64,000 bases of DNA from Dichetophora obliterata (taxonomy: Eukaryota; Arthropoda; Insecta; Diptera; Sciomyzidae), in the NCBI GenBank assembly GCA_963920525.1, contig OY986436.1, positions 28,781,318 to 28,845,317 on the forward strand, in the 5' to 3' direction. The position numbers and the translations under genes were made by a program. The notes under the pieces are model-generated. The model was not told the DNA's origin, made no database searches, and worked only from the letters and a program-made list of their open reading frames with translations. Below, in pieces: positions 8,093 through 57,425 of the stretch; the first letter of the stretch is position 1, and every line of letters begins with the position of its first letter.

Positions 8093-8266
8093 TGCCTGCT
8101 GTGGGAAATTTCACAGACGAACAGGAGCAGCGCTCGACAATGTCGTTGGATACGCGCGAATATCCTCTGCAGAGCAATGAATATAATAAAAATGGCCAGA
8201 ATGTGATGACAAATGGCGGCAGCGGCAGTGGAAGTGGCGAGCGAACTTATAATAATGGACCACAGT
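8093..8266 (+). CDS. smal: Receptor exon: extracellular juxtamembrane region
   Basis: The exon is bounded by a strong acceptor (long T-rich tract ending TTTTTCAG at 8092) and donor T|GTAAGT at 8267. It is 174 nt with phase 1 at both ends. It encodes a hydrophilic segment beginning PAVGNFTDEQEQRS and containing SLDTREYPLQSNEYN and a Gly/Ser run GGSGSGSG. The NFT sequon is a likely N-glycosylation site. The last T joins TA of the exon at 19998 to give a Leu codon. This is read as the end of the ectodomain, after the discoidin domains, which must be encoded left of the window. An ATG at 8017 gives an apparent longer ORF, but its first codons are the polypyrimidine tract of the intron. Gene identity is inferred from the downstream exons. 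Confidence 0.6.
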
Positions 8267-8555
8267 GTAAGTAGAATTTAATGTTAAATGTTTGTGCATT
8301 AAGCGAAATTGTTCTAAGAATTTATTATAGAAGAATTGAGAAAAAGCATATTTTTCTTATTTTTTTTATTGTAGAGTATTGTGAAGGGAAGTGGAGCTAA
8401 GTTTAGGTTTTAAAAAGATGATTTTATTGCAGGGAAAAGTTGGGGTGGAAAAAGAGAGAGTTGGTTATAGAGGCTTTAAAGCTGTAAGCGTCATTCGCAT
8501 TACTTATGGCAGCAAATAAAGCTTTTCCGTATGTATTTACTTGCTAGTGTAAAAA

Positions 8556-19997: not shown

Positions 19998-20230
19998 TAA
20001 TTGCACCGAAACCCATCGATCAAGAACCATCTGAGGAGAATTTCATTGGTGTTGTTATTGTTGTACTAACAACTATTATAATCCTACTTGTGGCTGTTAT
20101 ACTATTTATTGTATCGCGTACGAAACGTGCTCGTGGTAGCAACGTCTTGGATGCATTCCAATATAGTTTTAATCCGAATACACTTGGCGGCAATGTGGAT
20201 AAACATCGTCCAAATGGCACTGGCATTAAG
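19998..20230 (+). CDS. smal: Receptor exon: transmembrane helix
   Basis: Acceptor CATTTTGCAG ends at 19997 and donor AAG|GTAAGT begins at 20231. The exon has 233 nt, entering at phase 1 and leaving at phase 0. It starts IAPKPIDQEPSEEN, then an uncharged stretch of about 24 residues beginning FIGVVIVVLTT (codons 20042-20113), a single membrane pass. A basic stop-transfer SRTKRARGS follows, then SNVLDAFQYSFNPNTLGG. A 16-residue link between the ectodomain exon and the membrane, with a basic cytoplasmic flank, fits a type I receptor. Acidic residues outside and basic inside match the positive-inside rule. Family assignment comes from the next two exons. ORFs extending beyond the splice sites are intron sequence. 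Confidence 0.75.
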
Positions 20231-22782
20231 GTAAGTTGTCCTTGTTGTTTTCGTTTTTGCTATTGTTGTTCTCTGCTACTCAAACTATTTAGTTTATTTA
20301 TTTTTTGTTATTTTTATTTTTTTATTTTTTTTTTGTTATGTAGTTTGCCAGTTTTAGCTTGTGGCAGTGTGTTTGTGTTCTAGGATACTTCCAGGATACG
20401 AGCGCATTTGTCGTTAATGAGTGTTTTCAGCTCATTCGTGCTTTATTTTAAGCACTTGGTTTATTCTGTTGTTTTCAGTTCTTTTGGGTTTTTTGCTTGG
20501 AAACATAGCACATTAGAAATTAAAGTTCCTGCACGGAATTAGAAATATTTTGGCAAACTAGGTTCTATCCTGTTTTTGAAGAATTGGCGAGGATATTAAA
20601 ACAGCAGTAATAAATATTAATAGACTTGCAAAGTTGAGTGTTACATAAATATTTTAAAATTTTTTTGTAGTAATATATAAATTTAACCCTAGATACTAAC
20701 CTTATTTTACTATATATTATTACTTAACATGAGTAAGATTTGCTCACTTGCTCTGTCTTATTGTTGCAACAATTCCTTATGTTGGACACGTTTACAAGTA
20801 CATATTTTTTAATTGAAGAATTGTATAATTTCATTACTTTAAATAAACATAAACTTTTATTTTATATTTTAAAAAAACTGCTACTCATATATATTTAACT
20901 TCGTAGATATGAAAGCTTTTTAAACAAGGAGTGAGTAAATTTTACGTAGGTTAGTATTTTAGTCTTAAGGAAGTCTTTCCGAACTTGGAGAAACATTTTG
21001 GTTTGAGTCACAGAATTTAGAGTAAGGACTCTGCCCATTTACGGCATGTAACAAAACGACAGTAAAACGGCGACGAAAGGGCAACGTAATATTCAATGCA
21101 CACCTACAGGAACAGCGGCAAAGATTTTAATGAAACAAAAAAAATCAGGAACATGAGCGCAGGATTTTCTAATAAACAATTAGCTTTAATAGCTTTGCTA
21201 TAAGATAAAGCAGATACCGAAAATCAATGAAATAATAGATATTGGATTCATCCAATTCTTTTAATTTTATTTTGCTTCAATTCCATTCCTAAATTGAGTT
21301 TTGAGTATTAAATTACTATATTTTTGGGACTCATGTATTACAAAACATCATTTTTGCGCACAAGTTTAATTAATTTTTCGGATTCCATATTAATTTTTGT
21401 AAGCAAAGCGAACGACAAGAAGGTCCGAATTCTTTGCAAGGATGCCAGCGGCTTTTTCGTCGGCGTCAACAGTCGTTGCCGTTAAGTTTGCATGTATACA
21501 TAAGAACACAGGGTAGTTGTAGTTTCGTGTCATTTCGTTACGTGCAGCAGGTGGGCAGAGCCCTTAAAGTAAAAATGAGTATTTGCTGAAATAAGTTTAA
21601 GAACCTCAAATAAGTTTTTATTATATTCATGTAATTTTATTTTCTTTTGAAAAATAATATATTTTTATTAAATTAATAGGTTAATTGATTTGAAAAATAA
21701 TGGAACTTATATCGGGGTGTCATCATAGAAATCTCTTATGATAGTTCTGAAGAAGTTATGATAGTTCATTAGACTAGTTTAATGAAGAAATTGATCTATA
21801 ATTTTTCACGAATATATATAACCTTTATTGTATATAGTTAAAATTTATTAAAAAAATACGCGATGAACATTTTTATTAAAATGATATATACTTACTGAAA
21901 TTGGAATAAAGAGGAATCGCAATGTCAATAGAAATACAAAATCGCGATCTGCTAAATGCTTGTGGATGTAAACTCCATATTCGACCATTTTGTTTGTAAA
22001 CATTGCAGTTTAGGTCAAAATTTGCATGATATAATGGTAAAACGTTTTCATCCTCTTCCAAGCGAATCGGCAAGTTGAATTTTCTAGGGAATAAGTTTAA
22101 ATCTTTGACAAAAATTTGACAAATATGAATAATTTAGTATCATTTATAAAAAATCACTTGCTTTGTGATGAATTTAAGACTTACATTATTTTTTTTTTTT
22201 TTATTTAATATCATAAAAGCGAAATAAATTTTGAAAACCACTCCTAGTTTTTTCCTGAGAAAAAAGATTTTATACGATTTAAATATTTTTCCTAACTTTT
22301 AAAAAAATTTCTGGGTTCATTTTTGTGTGTCAAAAGAAAGTTTCTTGCCAAACAATTTTAATAAATCTCTTTTAACGAAGACAGTTCTGATTCACTGGTA
22401 TAGTTGTAAACTACCCCTATTAAAACTTACGTTAACTCATTTCTGAACAAAATTACTAATGAATTCAGTAATTGAACTAATGAAACTAATGAATTCAGTA
22501 AGTTCTGGTTCACTGGGTTTTATTTTTACTAAACATTTCTACAGAGATATAAAGAAACACAATTTAAAAGTATTTTTAAAAAAAAAATTTCTCCAAAAAA
22601 TTCCAAATGTTAATATTTTCTCCCCCACTTATTTAAGTTCATGCACTAAAATTACGTTTTAAGCCTTATATTGATCTCTTTTTCATATCTACTCCTTGTC
22701 TATCCTTACGATATACCATCAATTACTTAATTGCAAATTTATTTACTCATGTTACGTGTGTATATGTTCCAATTTATTTCAG
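20231..22782 (+). other. Intron (2.55 kb), phase 0
   Basis: Donor GTAAGT, acceptor TTTATTTCAG. Holds one TIR element (21024-21565). The rest is AT-rich without recognisable features. Confidence 0.65.
21024..21565. mobile_element. 542-bp TIR element
   Basis: Ends AAGGACTCTGCCCA and TGGGCAGAGCCCTT are inverted repeats, and inner blocks such as GTAACAAAACGACA and TGTCATTTCGTTAC are also complementary. No transposase. Confidence 0.65.
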
Positions 22783-22921
22783 GCCAATGTTGATGACAGC
22801 GATTCGATTGGCAAAAATAGCCTCTACCATGAACCCTTCAACGTGAACATGTACACCAGCGGCGTCAATGGATATGCAGCGGTTAATGATTTACAATGTA
22901 ATATGACGCCCGACTATACAG
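22783..22921 (+). CDS. smal: Receptor exon: cytoplasmic juxtamembrane segment
   Basis: Acceptor TTTCAG ends at 22782 and donor G|GTGTGT begins at 22922. The 139-nt exon enters at phase 0 and leaves at phase 1. It encodes ANVDDSDSIGKNSLYHEPFN and NMYTSGVNGYAAVNDLQC, ending TPDYT with the next codon split (G|AT, Asp). The tyrosines in LYHEPF, NMYTS and PDYTDVP are plausible phosphotyrosine docking sites. The LYHEPF.VNMYTS...PDYTDVP order is what I recall from the region just inside the membrane in insect discoidin domain receptors, and it is the main reason for the family call. This is knowledge-based, not from a search. Confidence 0.75.
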
Positions 22922-24015
22922 GTGTGTAAACAGCTCAGCCAAAACCTAACCGAACTGAACACTAACCAGACTTTGTGTAACACTGACTCCCACTGGCGCA
23001 CGGTGAATCATTTAGTACAAGCTAGAAGGACAAAATTATTTTATGACATACTTTTTATTATTGATTGAAAAAAATTATTTATTTTTTAAAATTATTTTTA
23101 ATTGTATTATAAAAATATAATTATATTTGAGCCTCATGCCAAATAAGTTAGTGAAGCAACATTTTGCAAAACACCAAATTATCAAGTTATGACGTTCTTG
23201 TACTTATGAGAATAAAACAAAAAAAAAAAGTAGTTTTGGAGAGAGGTTCGGGTATGTACAGTTCGCCTGCTATCGCCCCTTTTAAGGATTTATGAGGAGT
23301 TTAGGGTTACACGCTTAGGATAAATTCAACTGTTGCAAATGCAAACGTCATCTTGCACATTATAAAGGCAAAGTAATAGCTAGTTCAAAAACGCGTGAAA
23401 TAGACCGAAAACCAAGCCTCATTTATATAAAAAATTGAAATTAATTGTAAAAGCAATACCATCATATTAACCCTCGAAAGCCTGACAAGTTTCAAATACC
23501 TTAAGTGAAAATTAAATTGAAAAAAAGAAAATAATAAACATATTTTTCATATTTAAGTTGCTATAAATTATTCCATAGTTAAAAATACCAAAAAACTTTA
23601 ACAGATATTAGTTAACTTATTAAAAAGTTTTAAAAAAACCGTTTCAAAGAGTTTCCTATCTGTAGTACTATTTGAGTTATTGCATTAAAAATGATGACAC
23701 ATCTAAATGCCATATTTTGCTTTACTTCCGCTTATAGCTCGAAGCAAGGGGGAGATGGAGCCCCACTGCCATAACATTTTTGTTCGTCTTGGCCCAAGAA
23801 ACCAACCAGCGCCGGATTGAAACGTTGATCTGGGACACCCCTTTCTGAGAACTGTTAAAGTGCCAGAAAATCAGTAAAATTTTACTCATACTACGTCTAT
23901 CTCCAATACAAAATGAAGTAAAAATCAATAAAATTTGCAAATATGAAGTTTGCAAAAAAACAGCAAATATGAAGCTGATGAATGAAAATTTTGTACATAA
24001 GTTTTCTAAGGCTTT

Positions 24016-24795
24016 TTTAATTCTAAAACTTTACAGAAAACCATGCTTGCTTTCCATCATATAAGGGATGTAGGTTATAAAAACTTGAACCAGTAAAAGT
24101 GACAAAAATTAGGTTAAAAACTTTTACTTATTTCTGTTTAAAATTAATACCAATTAAGTGAGTATTCCTTAAACGTAGGTCTCGTTATTAAAGTGATATC
24201 TACCTTGTAGTTGACATCTCGCAATGGTACAACCATTCACATAGTGACCTCTAGGCCCGTAGCCAGAATTTTATATAGGAGTTAATGCTTGGATTACAAA
24301 ATTTTTTTGATACTATACCTAAAGTAAGGGGTTTTCTTAAATATTTATTACATTCTAAATTAATATTGAATATGGCGACCCTAAAAATTTACCAAAATCA
24401 GCTGATTTGGTAGGCCTCGAATTTTTAACCAAAATGTGTGCTAAATGAAAGTTTATGATGTAAAACAACACTTCGAGAAGTTTCAAGTTTAGATGATGTT
24501 ACTTTTTTTGTGAAATGAAGCCTAAAAGTTGGCTAAATCGGCTTATGTAAATTTCTGGCTGCGGGCCTATAGGTCACTATGAGCATGGTTTTACCATTGC
24601 GAAATGTCAACTACCAGAAAGATATCACTTTCATAACGAGACCTACAGTTAAGAAATACTTAATTGGTTTTAATTTTAAACAGAAATAAGTAAACGTTTT
24701 TGACTTCATTTTTGTCACTTTGGTTCAGGTTTTTATAAGCCGTTTGATATGATGGAATGCAAGCGTGGTTTACTGGTAAGTTTTATGAATTAAAA
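24016..24795. mobile_element. Foldback/MITE element next to the TATGT array
   Basis: Arms of roughly 260 bp (24016-24290 and 24540-24795) are inverted repeats, for example GTAGGTCTCGTTAT against ATAACGAGACCTAC and GGTCACTATG against CATAGTGACC. The spacer of 250 bp is non-coding. Its right end stops about 11 bp before the pentanucleotide array. Confidence 0.75.
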
Positions 24796-24806
24796 TAATA
24801 TAATTA

Positions 24807-26176
24807 ATGTTATGTTATGTTATGTTATGTTATGTTATGTTATGTTATGTTATGTTATGTTATGTTATGTTATGTTATGTTATGTTATGTTATGTTATGT
24901 TATGTTATGTTATGTTATGTTATGTTATGTTATGTTATGTTATGTTATGTTATGTTATGTTATGTTATGTTATGTTATGTTATGTTATGTTATGTTATGT
25001 TATTTTATGTTATGTTATGTTATGTTATGTTATGTTATGTTATGTTATGTTATGTTATGTTATGTTATGTTATGTTATGTTATGTTATGTTATGTTATGT
25101 TATGTTATGTTATGTTATGTTAAGTTATGTTATGTTATGTTATGTTATGTTATGTTATGTTATGTTATGTTATGTTATGTTATGTTATGTTATGTTATGT
25201 TATGTTATGTTATGTTATGTTATGTTATGTTATGTTATGTTATGTTATGTTATGTTATGTTATGTTATGTTATGTTATGTTATGTTATGTTATGTTATGT
25301 TATGTTATGTTATGTTATGTTATGTTATGTTATGTTATGTTATGTTATGTTATGTTATGTTATGTTATGTTATGTTATGTTATGTTATGTTATGTTATGT
25401 TATGTTATGTTATGTTATGTTATGTTATGTTATGTTATGTTATGTTATGTTATGTTATGTTATGTTATGTTATGTTATGTTATGTTATGTTATGTTATGT
25501 TATGTTATGTTATGTTATGTTATGTTATGTTATGTTATGTTATGTTATGTTATGTTATGTTATGTTATGTTATGTTATGTTATGTTATGTTATGTTATGT
25601 TATGTTATGTTATGTTATGTTATGTTATGTTATGTTATGTTATGTTATGTTATGTTATGTTATGTTATGTTATGTTATGTTATGTTATGTTATGTTATGT
25701 TATGTTATGTTATGTTATGTTATGTTATGTTATGTTATGTTATGTTATGTTATGTTATGTTATGTTATGTTATGTTATGTTATGTTATGTTATGTTATGT
25801 TATGTTATGTTATGTTATGTTATGTTATGTTATGTTATGTTATGTTATGTTATGTTATGTTATGTTATGTTATGTTATGTTATGTTATGTTATGTTATGT
25901 TATGTTATGTTATGTTATGTTATGTTATGTTATGTTATGTTATGTTATGTTATGTTATGTTATGTTATGTTATGTTATGTTATGTTATGTTATGTTATGT
26001 TATGTTATGTTATGTTATGTTATGTTATGTTATGTTATGTTATGTTATGTTATGTTATGTTATGTTATGTTATGTTATGTTATGTTATGTTATGTTATGT
26101 TATGTTATGTTATGTTATGTTATGTTATGTTATGTTATGTTATGTTATGTTATGTTATGTTATGTTATGTTATGTT
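24807..26176. repeat. Pentanucleotide satellite (TATGT)n, 274 units
   Basis: About 1370 bp of TATGT repeat with only two substitutions visible, G to T at 25004 and T to A at 25123. Because TATGT in any + frame lacks stops, three long spurious ORFs of MLCYV repeats result. These are not genes. It lies within an intron of the receptor gene. The true length in the genome may differ from the assembled one. Confidence 0.97.
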
Positions 26177-26580
26177 CGCCTAACATTTTTTACGCATTGT
26201 CTAAAAAACAGAAAAAGTTGCAAGAAAAACCTTTTCTTACCCAAAAATTTCCTTAAAGAAAATCAATACGAACTTTGATAATTTCGCTCTTATGAATTTA
26301 CTTTAAATTGATCGTTATTAAATAATCAAAAAGTTTTGAAGGGCTCCACGAATTTTTAAGACTTCCAAATGGCAAATCATATTCTCTTTTCTATGCTCCT
26401 TTTTTTTAATGTCGGATGTAGTTTTAAAATTTGCTCAATGTGCAAATAAGCTAAACTTTCAAGGCTTTATTATTGCGTGATCTCGATGTTATTGCGTGAT
26501 CTCGATGCATACGTATTTAATAATGCAGATTTTAATAAAATCTTGTTTGGTTTCAAGAATTTTAAAATTTTTAAATTGTA

Positions 26581-29339: not shown

Positions 29340-29830
29340 TGAATTACTCCACATGCAACTCAAAAAACTGTCGCCATAACCTTGTTGGCCGACAGAGACC
29401 CAACTTGGCCTTCTTTGGTGCACGTTTACATTGAGAAATCAACTGTTTTGACTGTTCCTTGATCTCTGAAGTATTGAGATATATCCATTTTACATCTACA
29501 GTCACGAAATTGCACAAAAACTCCTTCGGATTGCGTTTGAACATCATTTTTGAAGTTGTCACACGGCTGCGCTTTTGGTCGAGTGTAAGCAATCACGGCA
29601 CCCATCGCGCGGATAGCTTCTTCATGTAAAATGTGATGTGCCACTCAGTTAAGATGTCTGTAGCCTCAGCCACCTCACACACTTTCATTCTCAGACCGTC
29701 CAATATCATTCCATGGATTTTATCGACAATTTCTGGCGTGGCGACCTCTTTTGGGCGACCTGAACTTGTTCTGGTACGACCACAGCGGAATTCAGTAAAC
29801 CACTTCTAAACTATTAAAATTTATGGTGCA
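29340..29830 (-). pseudogene. Dead mariner transposase
   Basis: Minus-strand fragments include DVKWIYLNTSEIKEQSKQ followed by APKKAKLGLC, matching the D.KW.....ETKEQSKQW..... APKKAK block around the first catalytic Asp of mariner transposases. An adjoining frame (29426-29644) and the antisense of about 29640-29830 continue upstream transposase in broken frames. A sequence ACAAGGGCAATTTGATAAGT at 28861 and a similar CGAGGGAAATTTAAAAAGTC at 30066 are in direct, not inverted, order, so the element ends are unclear. Confidence 0.7.
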
Positions 29831-31006
29831 GAGTCCCATGTTTTTTGTCAAGCCTTTCCTTGGTTGCAGCGATGGTTTTTTACGCAAAAAATAATGCTTG
29901 ATTAGTACAAGAAATTCACTTTATAACATTTTCGTCGAAATTCACGTATTGTTTGCTTTCAAAGTCTGTCAAACACAAACAAAATTACGCAGTTTGCTCA
30001 AAATTTGACAGTAGTCTATCAACATATGGTTGCTAACAGAAAAAGTATTGCATTTCAAGTTACTACGAGGGAAATTTAAAAAGTCACTGACTTTTCAAAA
30101 TACCTACGTATTAAAATGGCGATGTTTTATTAAAAATGACAAAAATTGATTTGAGGAAATAATAATGGTATTTATCTAAGCGCGCAAATTTCCCATTTGT
30201 GAAAATGTGAATTTTTAACTGAACGCACCTTCACTTTTTTAAGCAATTATTGACAGTCGATGAACATTTGCGAAAAATGTCAGTACTGAAGAAATAAAAA
30301 TGCCAAAATAAAGCGAAAAAAGTAAATTAATAAAATTATTTAGATAACAACTTAAATGGTTGTTTTTCAATTTAATTAAAATCACAGAAGAAGGATTTGC
30401 ATAATTAACACCGCAAGTTTTCTTGACGAATTGGTCGTGCATACTTATTAGGTTTGTGCAAAAGGTTTTCCATATGATTTTTGACAGCTCATTTGCGAAG
30501 GTGGAAAAATGCACAGTTTGCACAGTATACGAGGGTTTTGGGCGTTAAGATGAATACCATCTTAAATATATTTAGGGTTTTTTTATGTTTAAACTCTAAA
30601 TTTTTAAAGATTTTTTAGTCGGATATGAAGATTTTGAGGCATATTCAAATAGCAGACTCTATTCGATTCACTGTGCGCCACTCTCACCCTAATTCGCACG
30701 AAGTTACCAGTCAGCCTAGTCAATTTAATACCTTCTATAAAAGCACTAACAAAAAACGAACAACACCCACACAAACCCTAACACCAACACTAGAAACAAA
30801 TAGCCAGCTATGTATGTATATACAGCAGACCTTGAAAGCACATTAATATTACTTAAACTACGCCGTAGAAGCAATTCCTGCGGGAATCCTTATAACTATG
30901 CAATATGACTAAAAGTATTTTTTTTCTTTTTCTCTCTTTTTACTCTCCTCCTCTATTACGCTTTTTCTTGCTGTATTTTCATTACCGCATTTTTTTGACC
31001 GCACAG

Positions 31007-31434
31007 ATGTTCCGGAAGGTGGCTATGCTGTGCCTCATATGCAGGATTATATGCCCACAAAAATGGCCGCTGCCAGTGGCTATGTGAATGTTAGACGTAC
31101 TCCTCCGCCACCACTAAGCAGCATATTTCCAAGGCCACCATCGGTGCCGCCACCACCCATGGAAAAATACTATGCCACAACAGCGATATTTAAGCCCATA
31201 AAACAAGGTGCTGCCAGTAGCAGCAGCAGCAATAATAGCGGCGTAGGTGTTGGCGATCGCAAGATTGGCGGTAACAACCTCAACACCGGTGAACATAATA
31301 CTTTCGACGATGGCATGGGTACCATGAATACCCAGTCTACGGCGCCCATGATTAGTCCGTACAGCAGCAGCGATACAATGCAATTTCAACGCGCCAGAAC
31401 TTATAATTTCCGCAGCTATCCTGATAATCTTTAG
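31007..31434 (+). CDS. smal: Receptor exon: proline-rich cytoplasmic tail to the TAG
   Basis: Acceptor GACCGCACAG ends at 31006. The first two bases complete Asp from the previous exon (PDYT-D-VPEGGYAVPHMQDYM). The sequence continues with a proline-rich tract (PPPPLSSIFPRPPSVPPPP, about 31100-31160), EKYYATTAIFKPIKQG, a Ser run, and ends ARTYNFRSYPDNL before TAG at 31432-31434. The YAVPHM and EKYYA.TAI motifs are those I associate with insect DDR-type receptors, where a tyrosine kinase domain would normally follow. None follows here. PPPP blocks could bind SH3 or EVH1 domains. The frame after the stop remains open (next entry). An apparent Met start at 31030 is internal. The four visible exons encode about 323 residues. 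Confidence 0.75.
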
Positions 31435-32148
31435 TTTGAATTTGGCGCCAACGGTGTTGTTGTTCTAGGTGGTGGCGGTGGTATTATTGGTGGAGATGGT
31501 GTTGGTGGTATTAGTGTTGGGGGTGGTGGTGGTGGTATCGGTATTGGTGGTATGGTGCGTACAATGCCGCGCAAGCAAAAAAGATTGCAACTGCTGCAGC
31601 AGCACCAGCAGCAACAGCAGAAGCTCAACGAACAACAACAACAACTGCAGTTGGAACAATCGGAGCAACCTAAATATAGTTTGACTTTATGCAAAAGCAT
31701 TCATATAAATACTATAAACAATCGTAAAGTGAACAATCAGCAACTCCTACAAAAACAACCACAACAGCAACAGCAGCAATACAACAATCATGCTCAACAA
31801 CAACATCAAGAACAACAGCAGCAGCAGCAGCAGCAAAAAGAACAACATAAAAATCAATTAAACATTGTTGATGATGTTAATCATTATCATCAACTACAAC
31901 ATCATCTCGATAACACAATAACAACAATGCGAGCAACAAAAACACTTTCATGCGTTGGCGACAACACTGCTGCTGTTGCTAATACAGATATTGATGATAA
32001 GAACCTATTAAAGAGAACAACAACATTAAATGGTAGTTTAATATCGGCTGCATCAAAAACAAAAACAGCAACAAAATCATTAGTAAACGATAACTATAAC
32101 GATAACGTTAACGAGCTAAGAACCCAAAATAGGCTGTGGTATCATTGA
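31435..32148 (+). CDS. In-frame 237-codon extension beyond the receptor's TAG
   Basis: Immediately after TAG the same frame is open for 237 codons to TGA at 32146-32148. It starts FEFGANGVVVLGGGGGII, is glycine-rich to about 31550, and then becomes a basic and Gln-rich region beginning RTMPRKQKRLQLLQQHQQQQ and continuing to about 31850. It ends as an Asn/Asp/Thr-rich stretch (DDVNHYHQLQHHLDNTITTM). Codon choice is gene-like: GGT/GGC runs and CAA/CAG runs stay in one frame. An ORF beginning at the internal ATG 31552 could be read alone, but its exact phase with the receptor exon suggests one continuous reading frame interrupted by TAG. Candidates are stop readthrough, a nonsense allele, or 3'UTR that happens to be open. 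Confidence 0.5.
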   Translation, partial: FEFGANGVVVLGGGGGIIGGDGVGGISVGGGGGGIGIGGMVRTMPRKQKRLQLLQQHQQQQQKLNEQQQQLQLEQSEQPKYSLTLCKSIHINTINNRKVNNQQLLQKQPQQQQQQYNNHAQQQHQEQQQQQQQQKEQHKNQLNIVDDVNHYHQLQHHLDNTITTMRATKTLSCVGDNTAAVANTDIDDKNLLKRTTTLNGSLISAASKTKTATKSLVNDNYNDNVNELRTQNRLWYH

Positions 32149-33229
32149 TGAGATATGAAACCAATGGATTTGAGGTGAGTTTGAGAATTGTTGGTGAAAT
32201 TTATACTTGCGATAAGAAACTTTTGTGCATACATTAAGAAATTTTAAGTGTCTCTTGTTGCCATGGGTGTCAATAAGATTGAGTATAATTTAAAAAAAAG
32301 GAACATTTTTGGATAAGTTTTATTATGCACAGTTTGTAAAAAGTTTATTATAAATGCACAGTTACAGTATTTTTTTAGAAAACTCCTACCTTTTTCATAA
32401 AAACAATGCAATACATTTTTTTCGAGTGGTTTATTAATGGTTAAATTTTTATTCAAATATTATAAATATTAAGTTCCTATTTGTTTATGAATACTTAGAA
32501 GAAAGTCTCAGCAAATCCATTTTAAACTTACCGGCCTTACGGAATGACCATATCCGATTTGGGTAAAATTTTGCGTGGAGCATCACTGACAAAAATAAAA
32601 AACTTAGTTTGGAGGAAAAAGTTTGGCGTGATTTTTTGCGTAGTTACGGCGTGCACAAAATTGACAAAAATCGGCAAAAAAGTCGAAAACAGCTTTTTAT
32701 GAAAATTCATATCTGAAATACTTTTTAGCCGAATGTTAAGTTTAAACTACCGTTGGAACGATATTAACCAGACTTTAATCTTAAAATAATTTTGAAAAAT
32801 TTTGGTGGTTGGCGGTTCCATCCCTTGTGGTAAGGTAATTTATTTCCAAGAACACCATTTAAATTTTTCTTAAAGCATTCATAATTTTTTTCTTAAGGCT
32901 GGCAAAATTACCTATTTAACAATAAAAAATTAGGAACTCAATGGCCTCATGAGATATGGACATTTTAACATCTGGTATGGATCTTTTTTCTAAGAGCATA
33001 TCCTGCTAAATGAACAGCCTTAGCAGTAATGCTGCATGCATCTTATGGCATTAATGCTGCATTCATCTCACGGAATTAATTCCAATTAAAACTAGTTTGT
33101 TAGTTTTAAAGTGGCCCATGTGCACTGCGATCCATGGAATCTATTGTGTATTCCCTTGATTAGCTCTCTTGATTTTGGCTTTAAATAAATTTTAGCACTT
33201 TTACTGGCTTCGTGTTCCATTTTTTTGAT

Positions 33230-35739: not shown

Positions 35740-36690
35740 TCGATTGTGAGTTCCAGACTTCCTCTATTATTTTCTTGAGATCTGCTACAGTTTAAGGTGA
35801 TTTTTCCTTGATTTCACGGCCCATCATTGACCATAAGTTTTCAATAATGTTTAAGTCTGGGCTATTTAAAGGCCAACTAAGAGATTGAATGCCAAGTTCA
35901 TCCTTTAATTTTGATACCGACGGCATGGAGCAGAATCATCCTGGGGTATGACACAATAATTCTTCAATGGTTGGTATAAGACGCTCAGATATTATTTCTG
36001 AGTATTTTTTTGCATTTACGGAACCACTTTGCAGTGAAATTCGTCCAACGCCGTAGAATGTTATGCATCCCCAGACTATTACATACGGTGAATGATGGTA
36101 TAATGCAATGACAGTTGGTAGAATGCGTTGACCGGAGTATCGTTTTTCTGTTTGCCTGCGCACTACGGATCTACCATCGGGTCCACTTAAACTGAATTTA
36201 GACTCATCTGAAAATATAATTTTTTTCCAATCATCAACGGTCCATGGATTGGCGATTTTTTGCCCAAAGTAGCCTTTTTTTCTTCATTGAATTGGACAGA
36301 AAAGGTTTTTTAGTAGATCTATATGCTTTTAAGCCCATTTGTGTGAGTCTTCGGGCCACAGTGCCAGTGCTTATTTTCACTGAATGTGCTTCCTCGAAGT
36401 CCCTTCTCAATTCTCTAGCAGTTTGAAACCGATTTTAGAGACTCATCCGTTCCAAAAGCCGATGTTCTCTTACTGTTGTTTTTTCGGCCTTCCGAATCCT
36501 TCCCTCCTCTCTGTAGAGCCAGTCGAAGAAAATTTCTTTAAAAAACGACAAACTGTGTTTTGGTTATACCCCACTTATTGTGAAATTTGTCAGGTAGAAA
36601 AACTTTTTTCACTTAAAGCTAGAAAACTGCCTTTTTCTTTTGCACTTAAAACCATTCTAACAGATAGCTACTGTTTGAGCCTTAAAATAA
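35740..36690 (-). pseudogene. Dead Tc1-like transposase
   Basis: Reading the minus strand from about 36690: MVLSAKEKGSFLALSEKSF and a helix-turn-helix-like segment, then FQTARELRRDFEE. After broken frames comes VIVWGCITFYGVGRISLQSG (35936-36163), the block containing the WG.(F/I).YYG.G motif. The last block near 35830 reads NIIENLW-like in degraded form. At least five stops are present. The sequence CAGTGATGCGTTTTTATTGG at 36830 may be one TIR, but I found no partner on the left. Confidence 0.7.
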
Positions 36691-44449: not shown

Positions 44450-46097
44450 CAAAAGCAAAAAAAAAAAAATATGAAAGACGGCGAAGCACTTCAGCAGTCG
44501 ACAGTTTCAGCAGTTTTGTTTTAATTGACTGAAACTGTGAACAAAATCGAAAGCCGGAGCAACAGCACGTGTTCAACTTTTGAAAGTCGAAGCAGCATCA
44601 GTTTTTCAACAGTCGTAGCAGACTGTTGCTTTGTGCTGTTACATTTCATTGATCACTTTCGTACCAATTTTTTTGCTTTTCGATCGTAGATCGCTTTTCG
44701 ATTGGACACTAGAGTGGACCCTAAAAAGGTGCTTTTTTTATATTATACTCTTTGTGTATGTGCTCTCAATATAAAGGGTGATCCAATACGAGTTGCCTTT
44801 TTCAACTGGGATGTTTTGACAGCTGTTATCTGTCAAATGGCTTGTCCATATGACGATTGTGTTCAGTATCAATACGACTCAATCATGAATAGACTTACTC
44901 CTGAACAAAATTTAATAATTGTGCAAACTTACTATCAAAATCAGTCATCAGTTAGAGTTCTTCAATATCATTTTGGTCGTTTTGAACGTCCACACCATCA
45001 AACCATCACCAAATTTCAAACCAATTTTACATTATTGGGCATTCATCATTCAAGCTGAGTGCATAGACCGCGTCATTTTGAGAATATTGCTGCAGTAGCA
45101 GAGAGTGTTCGTGAAAGCTGTAAACAATCGATTCGTCGCTGATCTCGAATTTTGTCGAAATTTGAAAATTGGACCCACAGAATGGACCATTTAAGAGCTA
45201 GTCGTGGTCAAAATTTGAACGAAATAATTTTTAAACATTGAGTTGTACACAGTAAAATATATGAGCATAAATTTTATACTATTTGGTATACATATAAATC
45301 CAAACAAAAATGTTTTAAAAGTTATACTACCATCAAATCTTATAAATTCTTCCACACCATTTTTCTCGTCAGACAAATCGAAACCACTATATTTTTAAGT
45401 TTCCCGATTTCGGTGAATTTTTTACTTTCGAACCAGAATATATTTTGATTAACACATGATAACACATGATTTGTAAATCTTATTTGTTTTATTATTTTTA
45501 TAATATTGAGTTGTATAAAATTTATAAATTATTTGGAATAAAAAAGTTTATACCACACAAATGTTATAAAAAAGATAAAACTTACCCTCAAATTTGTTAC
45601 CCTGTAGGAACCGAACTATCATTCCAAATAAAGATTTGCAACAATATATTGAATTTTATGTATTTTATTTAGAAAAAAACAAAGTAAGAAGCTCTTATTG
45701 GATCACCTTTTATAAGGGGTCGCTGATTTCTTATCTGATGTGAGAATTTCAAAAAGTTGTTTTGACACATAGGTTGAGTCTAAAAATATGTTCTTGTGTC
45801 AAAAGTGTTAAAGTAAACTTTTTGAAATTCGTACATCAGATTCTGCCAGCACATTTAGAAACTCATTTTTAGGCCCCACCCTAGTGTCCAATCGAAAAGA
45901 TATTTGCGATCGGAACTCAAAAAAATTGGTACAAAAGCGGTCAAACAAGTGTATAAGCACAAAGCATAAAAGCAAAACAGTCTGCTACGACTGTTGAAAA
46001 ACTGATGCTGCTTCGACTTTCAAAAGTTAAACAGTTGCTGAATCTGTCGACTGCTGAAGTGCTTCGCAGTCCATCAGATATTTTTTTTTGCTTTCCC
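44450..46097. mobile_element. 1.65-kb foldback element with a mariner-like insert
   Basis: Left arm about 44450-44720 and right arm about 45870-46097 are inverted repeats. GCGAAGCACTTCAGCAGTCG faces CGACTGCTGAAGTGCTTCGC, TTTCAACAGTCGTAGCAGAC faces its complement, and CGATTGGACACTAG faces CTAGTGTCCAATCG. The 44774-45710 element sits between the arms. Confidence 0.75.
44774..45710 (+). mobile_element. Mariner-like deletion derivative keeping the N-terminus
   Basis: TIRs AAGGGTGATCCAATACGAG and, inverted, AAAGGTGATCCAATAAGAG are flanked by TA. A + frame encodes MNRLTPEQNLIIVQTYYQNQ and HFGRFERPHHQTITKFQ, then after a stop FENIAAVAESVRESCKQSIR. This is the paired helix-turn-helix DNA-binding part of a mariner-family transposase. 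The catalytic domain is replaced by AT-rich DNA. The ENIAAVAESV block is of the type found with DD41D/rosa-like transposases, as at 55621-56536. Confidence 0.75.
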
Positions 46098-55620: not shown

Positions 55621-56536
55621 CAGGGTCCGCCAAATAACTTTTTTTTTTAATATTGTATAAAAAAAAACTACTAAATATTTTCTCAAATTTCTTTTTTTAT
55701 TTGAAAGTACAATCCTTCCGGTTAATAATGGAAAATAATTCCATTCAAATGGCTGCCTCGGTTGGCCATGCAGTAGCCTACACGATCGGTCCAATTTTTA
55801 AGCACATTATCGATTGTGTGCAGCTGTATTTCACCAATGGCTTCACGAATATTGTCCTTTAAAGCGTCAATTGTCTCTGGCTTGTCGGCGTAACACTTAT
55901 CTTTGAGGGCACCCCACAAATAAAAGCCCAACGGTGTCAAATCGCAGCTCCGAGGTGGCTAAACGACATCAGCTTTGCGGCTGATAATGCGATCTTCAAA
56001 AACAGGGCGCAAAACATCGATTGTAGCTTCGGCTGTGTGGCACGTAGCGCCGTCCTGTTGAAACCAAATGTTGCCAATATCTTCCTCTTCAATTTTTGTG
56101 AACAAAACTTCGTTCAACATGGCCCGATAACGATCGCCATTGACTGTAACGGCCACTCCTCGCTCATTTTCGAAGAAAAATGGCCCAATTATGCCTCTGG
56201 ACCAAAATCCGCACCAAACAGTGACTCGTTTTGGGTGCAACGGCTTTTCAATGTATGCGTGCGGGTTTTCTGTGCCACAAATGCGACAATTTTGCTTGTT
56301 AACATATCCGCCAAGATCAAAATGAGCTTCATCTGAAAAGATGATTTTTTTGGCAAAATCGGCATCTTCTGTAAGTCGATCGCAGGCCCACTTCTCAGCG
56401 ATGTTCAAGCGTATACACTACTATATTCTTTCAGCGGAAGAATAAAACTAATTATCTGTCAAATCAGACATGAGCTAAGTGTTACCATTCACGAAATAAG
56501 CACTAGTTGAAAAAAAAAGTTATATGGCGGACCCTG
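55621..56536 (-). mobile_element. Mariner-family (DD41D-like) deletion derivative keeping the C-terminus
   Basis: TIRs CAGGGTCCGCCAAATAACTT and, inverted, CAGGGTCCGCCATATAACTT differ at one of 20 positions and are flanked by TA on both sides. The minus strand encodes most of the catalytic domain of a transposase (next entry). The DNA-binding N-terminus has been deleted near 56410. Confidence 0.9.
55722..56408 (-). pseudogene. Transposase catalytic domain, DD41D/rosa-like, inactive
   Basis: Reading on the minus strand: EKWACDRLTEDADFAKKIIF then SDEAHFDLGGYVNKQNCR, giving catalytic Asp 1 (FSDEAHF). Catalytic Asp 2 lies in IWFQQDGATCHTAEATID. A TAG replaces a probable Trp after RKADVV, then PPRSCDLTPLGFYLWGALKD and KCYADKPETIDALKDNIREA to the end GSHLNGIIFHY. 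If the third catalytic Asp is that of the usual LTPLDYY block, the spacing is 41 residues, which is the DD41D signature. Here it is Gly, so the protein is doubly dead: nonsense codon and missing catalytic residue. The family name is inference from this spacing. Confidence 0.8.
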
Positions 56537-56794: not shown

Positions 56795-57425
56795 AGTAGA
56801 TATATTCTAGGTGCAGAAGAGTCCCTCTCTTGGTTACCTATCATCATAATATAAACGTATGTAAATTGGTAAGTTCTAAGGACTTATATAAATTTAGAAT
56901 TTTTCCAATACACCTAATCCTGTTTTTACACGGTACATACGTTCCAGAAAATATCGTGTAAAAAAAAATCAAAACGTGAAAATAACGTGTAAAAACAGGA
57001 TAAGTTTATTTCTGTCGACCGTGTTATTTCAAAATCGTGTAAAAAAAGACCGTGCAAAAACAGGATTAGGTGTACATTTATATTTAAAAGCTTAAGGCAC
57101 TGATATTGTGTAGAAAATCTGTATAATAGATCGCAGTTTATGTACAGGTAAGCTTACTAAAAGATTCAATGCCACTGATAATGTGTATTAAACCTGTATA
57201 ACAGACCGCGGACATCAGTGCCGCAAGCTTTTAAATATAAATTTATATAAATTTATTTATATAAATAAAAAATTTATTTGAAAAATTCTAAAATTATATA
57301 AGTCTTTAGATCTTACTTATTTAAGTACGCTTATATTATGATGATGAGTAACCAAGAGAGGGGTTCTTCTGCATCTAGCCGATGAGTAACCAAGAGAGGG
57401 GTTCTTCAGCATCTATAATATACCA
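56795..57425. mobile_element. Foldback element with nested palindromes
   Basis: The outer left arm (CCCTCTCTTGGTTACCTATC, TAAGTTCTAAGGACTTATAT) pairs with 57290-57425. At the right tip the segment GATGAGTAACCAAGAGAGGG plus GTTCTTC(T/A)GCATCTA is duplicated in tandem. Between the arms lie a palindromic MITE (56909-57076) and a further inverted repeat (about 57085-57240, TTAAAAGCTTAAGGCACTGA against TCAGTGCCGCAAGCTTTTAA). Confidence 0.7.
56909..57076. mobile_element. 168-bp palindromic MITE
   Basis: TACACCTAATCCTGTTTTTA at the left and AAAACAGGATTAGGTGTA at the right are inverted repeats. Inner copies of ACACGG, CGTGTAAAAA and AAAAACAGGATAAG suggest a composite of several short palindromes. 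Confidence 0.7.

Follow-up and report, generated by a model that had tools for sequence, protein, structure and literature searches.

Stop codon readthrough is already known as a route to C-terminally extended proteins and is common in flies, and large comparative lists of readthrough genes exist for Drosophila and Anopheles. According to the available part of PMC4528330, 328 readthrough genes were annotated in FlyBase in 2015, the first stops of readthrough genes are 97% conserved, and Drosophila extensions mostly measure 8-300 aa, with low complexity and disorder features in many of the longer examples. Enrichment of D. melanogaster extensions in disorder and low complexity is reported in the available part of PMC4999894, and that of PMC5100048 describes readthrough regions as usually showing intermediate coding scores and fast divergence. 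UGA is the stop codon that is most readily suppressed, and positions +4 to +9 matter (PMC13170385, available part). C at position +4 counts as a readthrough signal.

The locus described here lies in a window of 64,000 nucleotides (the whole stretch of DNA that was analysed) on contig OY986436.1 of Dichetophora obliterata, the genome of which comprises 1.31 Gb in 76 contigs. A receptor gene in this window reaches a TAG stop codon, and its frame then stays open for another 237 codons. D. melanogaster caps (capricious) is like this gene in encoding a transmembrane protein with an in-frame extension of ~240 aa and in having a paralogue, and its extension is of the low-complexity, variably conserved kind, that of the window gene being also of low complexity (PMC4528330, available part). 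However, the caps extension is backed by conservation and resembles the paralogue Trn, according to the same part of that paper, whereas the second open reading frame (ORF) of the window gene resembles nothing that was found. Drifter/vvl (dfr) has a UAG stop and an in-frame C-terminal extension in the fly, as the window gene does with its putative extension, but positions +4 to +9 of dfr are CAAUCA, which is favourable, whereas those of the window gene are UUUGAA. The role of a stem-loop in dfr has been tested by mutation, whereas no significant structure is detected in the window gene (for dfr, PMC13170385, available part). Drosophila Ddr, a receptor tyrosine kinase, is like the window gene in the plan of its extracellular domains (PMC10112903, available part).

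The receptor gene and its kinase-bearing paralogue

Four exons of one gene are placed on the forward strand of the window by tblastn with the D. persimilis protein P0010 and the Glossina protein P0011. The exon at 8093-8266 encodes the end of a discoidin-like domain and the extracellular juxtamembrane region (SVPAVGNFTDEQEQR...YNNGPQ), and is flanked by the acceptor CAG/TG and by the donor AGT/GTAAGT at 8267. The exon at 19998-20230, which encodes the transmembrane helix and the start of the cytoplasmic region, is 91% identical to P0011 and is bounded by the acceptor TGCAG/TA and the donor AAG/GTAAGT. The exon at 22783-22921, which encodes a cytoplasmic juxtamembrane segment (ANVDDSDSIGKNSLYHEPFNVNMYTSG...MTPDYT), is 96% identical to P0011, ends in phase 1 and is followed by the donor CAG/GTGTGT at 22922. 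The fourth exon starts at 31007, behind the acceptor GCACAG/AT, in a phase compatible with the exon at 22783-22921. Its first-ORF part (31007-31431) encodes further juxtamembrane sequence with the Tyr motifs GGYAVPHMQDY and KYYATTAI, a Pro-rich stretch and the conserved C-terminus FQRARTYNFRSYPDNL. The introns are long (about 11.7, 2.6 and 8.1 kb). When all 3375 GT and 3087 acceptor sites on the forward strand of the window are scored with an approximate weight matrix, the real donors at 20231, 22922 and 8267 rank 3, 7 and 99 of the 3375.

Upstream discoidin exons are found outside the window, on the same strand of the contig at 28.69-28.76 Mb, with 85-95% identity, and the D. persimilis relative P0010 matches PF00754 and PF21114 (F5/8-type C and DS-like domains). 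The plan of a discoidin domain receptor is therefore present, with the extracellular domains upstream and the transmembrane exon within the window. A human DDR1 probe detects no kinase in the 32.6 kb of the window after the stop or in 210 kb downstream, and the same probe finds the paralogue. Kinase exons spliced behind the stop-bearing exon were considered and rejected, none being found in about 241 kb. The D. persimilis and Glossina models of the kinase-less type also end without a kinase. By these matches, the window holds the 3' half of the gene for a kinase-less paralogue of the fly discoidin domain receptor.

On the same strand, at 29.56-29.83 Mb, there is another group of matching exons, and the juxtamembrane exon of this second gene continues into the start of a kinase. 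The contig thus carries a tandem pair of discoidin-receptor paralogues, separated by about 1 Mb (28.69-28.81 and 29.56-29.83 Mb), one with and one without a kinase start, the former corresponding to Drosophila Ddr. The two genes share the juxtamembrane motifs YAVPHMQD and EKYYA and the Pro-rich stretch, but the juxtamembrane exon of the kinase-bearing paralogue runs into the kinase, whereas the window gene terminates without reaching a kinase. The window paralogue has apparently lost the kinase and ends in a shared RTYNFRSYPDNL C-terminus.

We take the D. melanogaster counterpart of the window gene to be smal (smoke alarm). No publication linking smal with readthrough was found among the matches listed by a search that covered publications without their supplementary gene lists, in which the gene may be included, and by title none of the listed publications deals with a fly discoidin receptor that lacks a kinase. 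In the available part of its main text, a ribosome-profiling paper (PMC3840789) names neither Ddr nor smal, and smal appears in PMC8906543 only as an example of polymerase profiles.

Other features of the window are a short tandem repeat of about 1.4 kb at 24794-26256, which reads MLCYV in three frames, and an open frame at 44690-45055 on the forward strand with a match to the DUF4817 helix-turn-helix domain (PF16087, E 2.9e-5), which is of a kind found in transposons. Broken frames resembling mariner/Tc1-type transposases by eye lie on the reverse strand at 55962-56417, 35939-36283 and 29347-29805; none of these has a Pfam match at E 0.01.

The second ORF and the age of the first stop

The first frame runs from stop to stop over 30913-31434 on the forward strand, comprises 173 codons and is closed by the TAG at 31432-31434, in the context CTT TAG TTT GAA. 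The second ORF follows in the same frame (31435-32148), with 237 codons at 31435-32145 and a TGA at 32146-32148. A second TGA lies directly 3' of it (codon 32149), giving a double stop at 32146-32151. The second ORF is Gly-rich at about 31435-31551, Gln-rich at about 31579-31848, and ends in a distal tail of Asn, Thr, Asp and Lys at 31849-32145. The two stops and the 237 sense codons between them are as the original prediction had placed them, exactly to the base. Its further term prion-like describes no more than the composition of the tail.

The run contains no in-frame stop, whereas the two remaining forward frames hold 13 and 20. When it is simulated 5000 times under each of four models built from the run itself, the expected number of stops is 16.1 for a base shuffle and 12.3, 11.0 and 10.9 for Markov models of orders 1, 2 and 3, and no simulation of the whole run is free of stops under any model. 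The 171 codons that are left when Gln and Gly codons are removed contain no stop either (P about 1e-6 for independent bases), and the distal 99-codon tail is stop-free in 4, 0 and 9 of 5000 simulations under the Markov models of orders 1, 2 and 3. This tail was also compared with 64 control runs from other parts of the window, each free of stops over 75 codons or more; the known exons, the TTATG array and 30900-32200 were kept out. Its purine content at codon position 1 is matched by none of these controls, its low T content at position 1 by one, its period-3 power by two and its RNY score by three. The two controls with higher period-3 power come from the opposite strands of a single stretch (55.9-56.4 kb), which by eye resembles a transposase. 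The distal tail thus has a coding-like bias of codon positions, and the run, as had been predicted, is more than chance would give.

Seven small tandem arrays in the run have periods of 27, 9, 3, 3, 8, 6 and 6, six of which are divisible by 3, as compared with 190 of 514 arrays in a background made up of the window outside the run plus 210 kb downstream (binomial P 0.012). Such periods would be expected if out-of-frame insertions and deletions are removed. The coding signature of the second ORF is weaker than that of the first: no period-3 signal is detected in its last 50 codons (0.79), and GC3 of the tail is 0.22, as compared with 0.46-0.52 in coding exons of the window gene and its paralogue (8 segments, 576 codons, two exons read in a wrong frame being left out). 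In the 210 kb downstream, 11 of 26,693 runs on both strands reach at least 237 codons; of the 12 longest listed, five are simple repeats, five resemble transposon proteins by eye and two are of uncertain nature. A 240-codon open run in this nearby DNA (L013:2596-3315, forward strand) is no obvious simple repeat.

The extension has only sub-threshold Pfam matches. No homologue of the distal tail (residues 138-237) with E of 10 or less is found among 17 word-sharing candidates, nor is one found in the nearby DNA or at the paralogue loci. The candidates were limited in length, short or strongly diverged frames escape the search, and the closest relatives in the searched collection share no more than 65-66% identity over the first-ORF exon; this negative result is therefore weak evidence. 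The 237-codon run is neither a product of chance nor mere repeats. The second ORF is very likely coding now, or was until recently.

The age of the first stop is indicated by 14 related proteins, nine of which were retrieved by a search with the first ORF and five with a fused query in which the stop was read as Tyr. Ten are of the kinase-less and four of the kinase type. P0007, which breaks off early, was left out, and all nine remaining kinase-less relatives, which reach the C-terminus, end exactly at F-Q-R-(A or T)-R-TYNFRSYPDNL (...RTYNFRSYPDNL). They include models from D. persimilis and Glossina brevipalpis and were compared as proteins, not as DNA; they represent about seven independent cases, since P0005 and P0008 seem to be copies of a single locus, and both P0002 and P0011 resemble Glossina on inspection by eye. 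A stop at the same place in fly relatives, which was to be checked, is thus seen at the level of protein ends. A sense codon corresponding to 31432 is seen in none of the five proteins, from 5626 candidates of likewise limited length, that match the fused query; this, too, is weak evidence. These are two longer kinase-less receptor models with the same end residue and three kinase-type paralogues.

A protein end that relatives share need not be a true stop. The four kinase-type relatives (P0009 and P0012-P0014) also share one end (...CETKGLR), and the kinase-type paralogue exon of D. obliterata ends at the donor GAG/GTAAGT (L010:1477), with the TAA falling in frame. The shared CETKGLR end of these protein models is probably a donor artefact without a true stop, and an in-frame TAA in a splice donor is a trap when protein ends are taken for stops. 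This artefact does not explain the TAG of the window gene, because the GT that overlaps it (31434) scores -5.2, ranks 2855 of 3375 and is no donor. From the protein ends, the first stop looks fixed and old, and the short form of the receptor is probably a conserved product.

Readthrough and its alternatives

Readthrough of the first stop leads among the explanations of the second ORF, with a probability of roughly 0.4, and splicing past the stop is its main rival. A small fraction of ribosomes would insert an amino acid at the UAG, and the receptor would thereby acquire a cytoplasmic tail that is disordered and rich first in Gly and then in Gln. The conserved free C-terminus, the PDNL end of which presumably fits the class-3 PDZ-ligand pattern, would be buried in this long isoform, and a receptor without its own kinase would gain a sticky low-complexity region. 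An isoform extended in this way had been proposed in the original prediction; the coding signature downstream and the old, fixed-looking stop are in its favour, but splicing around the TAG or initiation at an ATG further downstream would produce the same pattern.

Readthrough is placed first because Drosophila is well known to have long, disordered extensions rich in CAG. The length, low complexity and CAGCAGCA content of the second ORF and the long introns of the gene resemble those of published Drosophila candidates (available parts of PMC5100048, PMC4528330 and PMC4999894). CAGCAGCA is an 8-mer for which readthrough candidates are enriched in the region that starts 250 nt upstream of the first stop and reaches to the second, and it is present in 35.3% of D. 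melanogaster readthrough regions (PMC5100048, available part). It occurs 11 times in 31221-31828, three times before and eight times after the stop, but this count is not independent evidence, because the Gln-rich frame makes the 8-mer likely anyway. The stop context, the lack of a fold, the lack of a tail homologue, the low GC3 and a donor candidate at 32175 count against readthrough. The context UAG-UUUGAA, with U and not C at +4, is not among the favoured ones, and the folding of RNA after the stop is not significant as compared with shuffles (z of -0.38 to -1.76 in five overlapping stretches). A leaky context (UGA or +4 C) or a downstream RNA structure is thus not seen; these are enriched properties that are absent from some published candidates. 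Weak GC3 and missing homologues also fit a readthrough region, because such regions typically diverge fast and have intermediate coding scores.

The donor candidate, GAG/GTGAGT at 32175-32180, is the top-scoring of the 3375 GT sites and begins 26 nt after the second stop, such that an exon would end at 32174. Only three of 21,489 GT sites in 210 kb on both strands score as high. This site, noticed after the fact, makes it doubtful that the exon is the last one of the receptor gene, as had been predicted along with its correct start at 31007; the exon may span 31007-32174 and need not be the last. This arrangement would agree with a second stop that is actually used, whether reached by readthrough or through splicing. 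However, four of the top seven donors of the window (57148, 21551, 24776 and 49459) lie at no known exon, and 32175 may likewise be unused. The site at 57148 on the forward strand, CAG/GTAAGC, is the second-best donor-like site of the window.

Alternative splicing is a possible, if tentative, explanation, in which the second ORF would be translated as part of an isoform with no TAG in its mRNA and with its frame ending at TGA 32146. The exon at 22783-22921 would be joined directly to an acceptor at 31469, or a hypothetical in-frame exitron of 180 nt (31289-31468; ACCG/GTGAAC ... GTTGTTCTAG/GTG) that contains the TAG would be removed, and the donor at 32175 would then be used. The second stop lies 26 nt before the top donor of the window, which is a usual position for a genuine stop in a spliced mRNA. 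The AG of the hypothetical acceptor, placed at 31467-31468 from the coordinates, is preceded by a T-rich tract (GTTGTTGTTCTAG/GTG), and the acceptor is in frame both with the exitron donor at 31289 and with the exon at 22783-22921, since 31469 - 31007 = 462 = 154 x 3. The exitron donor scores 7.93 (rank 33 of 3375), which lies between the lowest and highest scores of the real donors (6.34 and 12.0). The odds shift slightly from readthrough to splicing, because the real donor at 8267 scores lower (6.34). However, the acceptor at 31469 ranks 402 of 3087, below four real acceptors (ranks 6 to 76), and an in-frame fit is a one-in-three chance. No such isoform is seen in the 14 relatives, most of which are single-exon frames that are unable to show one.

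Absence of translation, in which the second ORF is DNA of the 3' untranslated region whose triplet repeats (GGT, CAA/CAG and AAC/ACA) keep their phase by chance, is a possible explanation that is slightly less likely than splicing. It agrees with the large share of triplet repeats in the run, the 11 nearby runs of at least this length, the last 50 codons without a period-3 signal, the low GC3 and the tail without a homologue. On the other hand, the 171 codons other than Gln and Gly are free of stops, the non-repeat tail is coding-like as compared with the 64 stop-free controls, and six of seven arrays have periods of 3n.

It is improbable that the second ORF is a separate cistron of about 198 aa (ATG 31552) or 194 aa (ATG 31564), translated by internal initiation on the same mRNA. 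Both ATGs are in frame, that at 31564 has A at -3, and D. melanogaster has 159 annotated pairs of dicistronic genes (PMC4528330, available part). However, the 39 codons between the TAG and the first ATG are open in this frame as well, which would not be necessary for a separate cistron, and no homologue of the distal tail is found.

A-to-I editing of UAG to UGG (Trp), by which the extension would be made without readthrough, is very improbable. The stop sits in U-A-G, which is a favourable triplet for ADAR, but no inverted-repeat arm over the TAG is present within 30.7-32.4 kb. Complement matches to 31372-31491 in the whole window are just 11-12 nt long, and the single 12-nt match that includes the TAG lies 9.6 kb away and is at chance level (E 0.34).

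A nonsense allele or assembly error, which had been named as the main rival and for which a single assembly and the misleading common end of the kinase-type models leave some room, is the least likely of all and is set aside, because the proteins of all nine kinase-less relatives that reach this place, the models of D. persimilis and Glossina brevipalpis among them, finish at one and the same residue, and because the GT that overlaps the TAG is no donor.

Implications of a possible second C-terminus

If splicing bypasses the stop, the locus is a warning against calling readthrough from single genomes. If readthrough occurs, the choice at the stop might act as a switch, though this is rather unlikely: termination would expose PDNL to a PDZ scaffold, whereas readthrough would hide PDNL and the 237-aa Gly/polyQ tail would cluster the receptor, possibly in connection with splicing at the donor 32175. 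The long isoform, if it is made, would provide a testable case of how low-complexity tails arise. A receptor without its enzyme would then gain a second C-terminus, behind a stop that is apparently common to Drosophila and Glossina.
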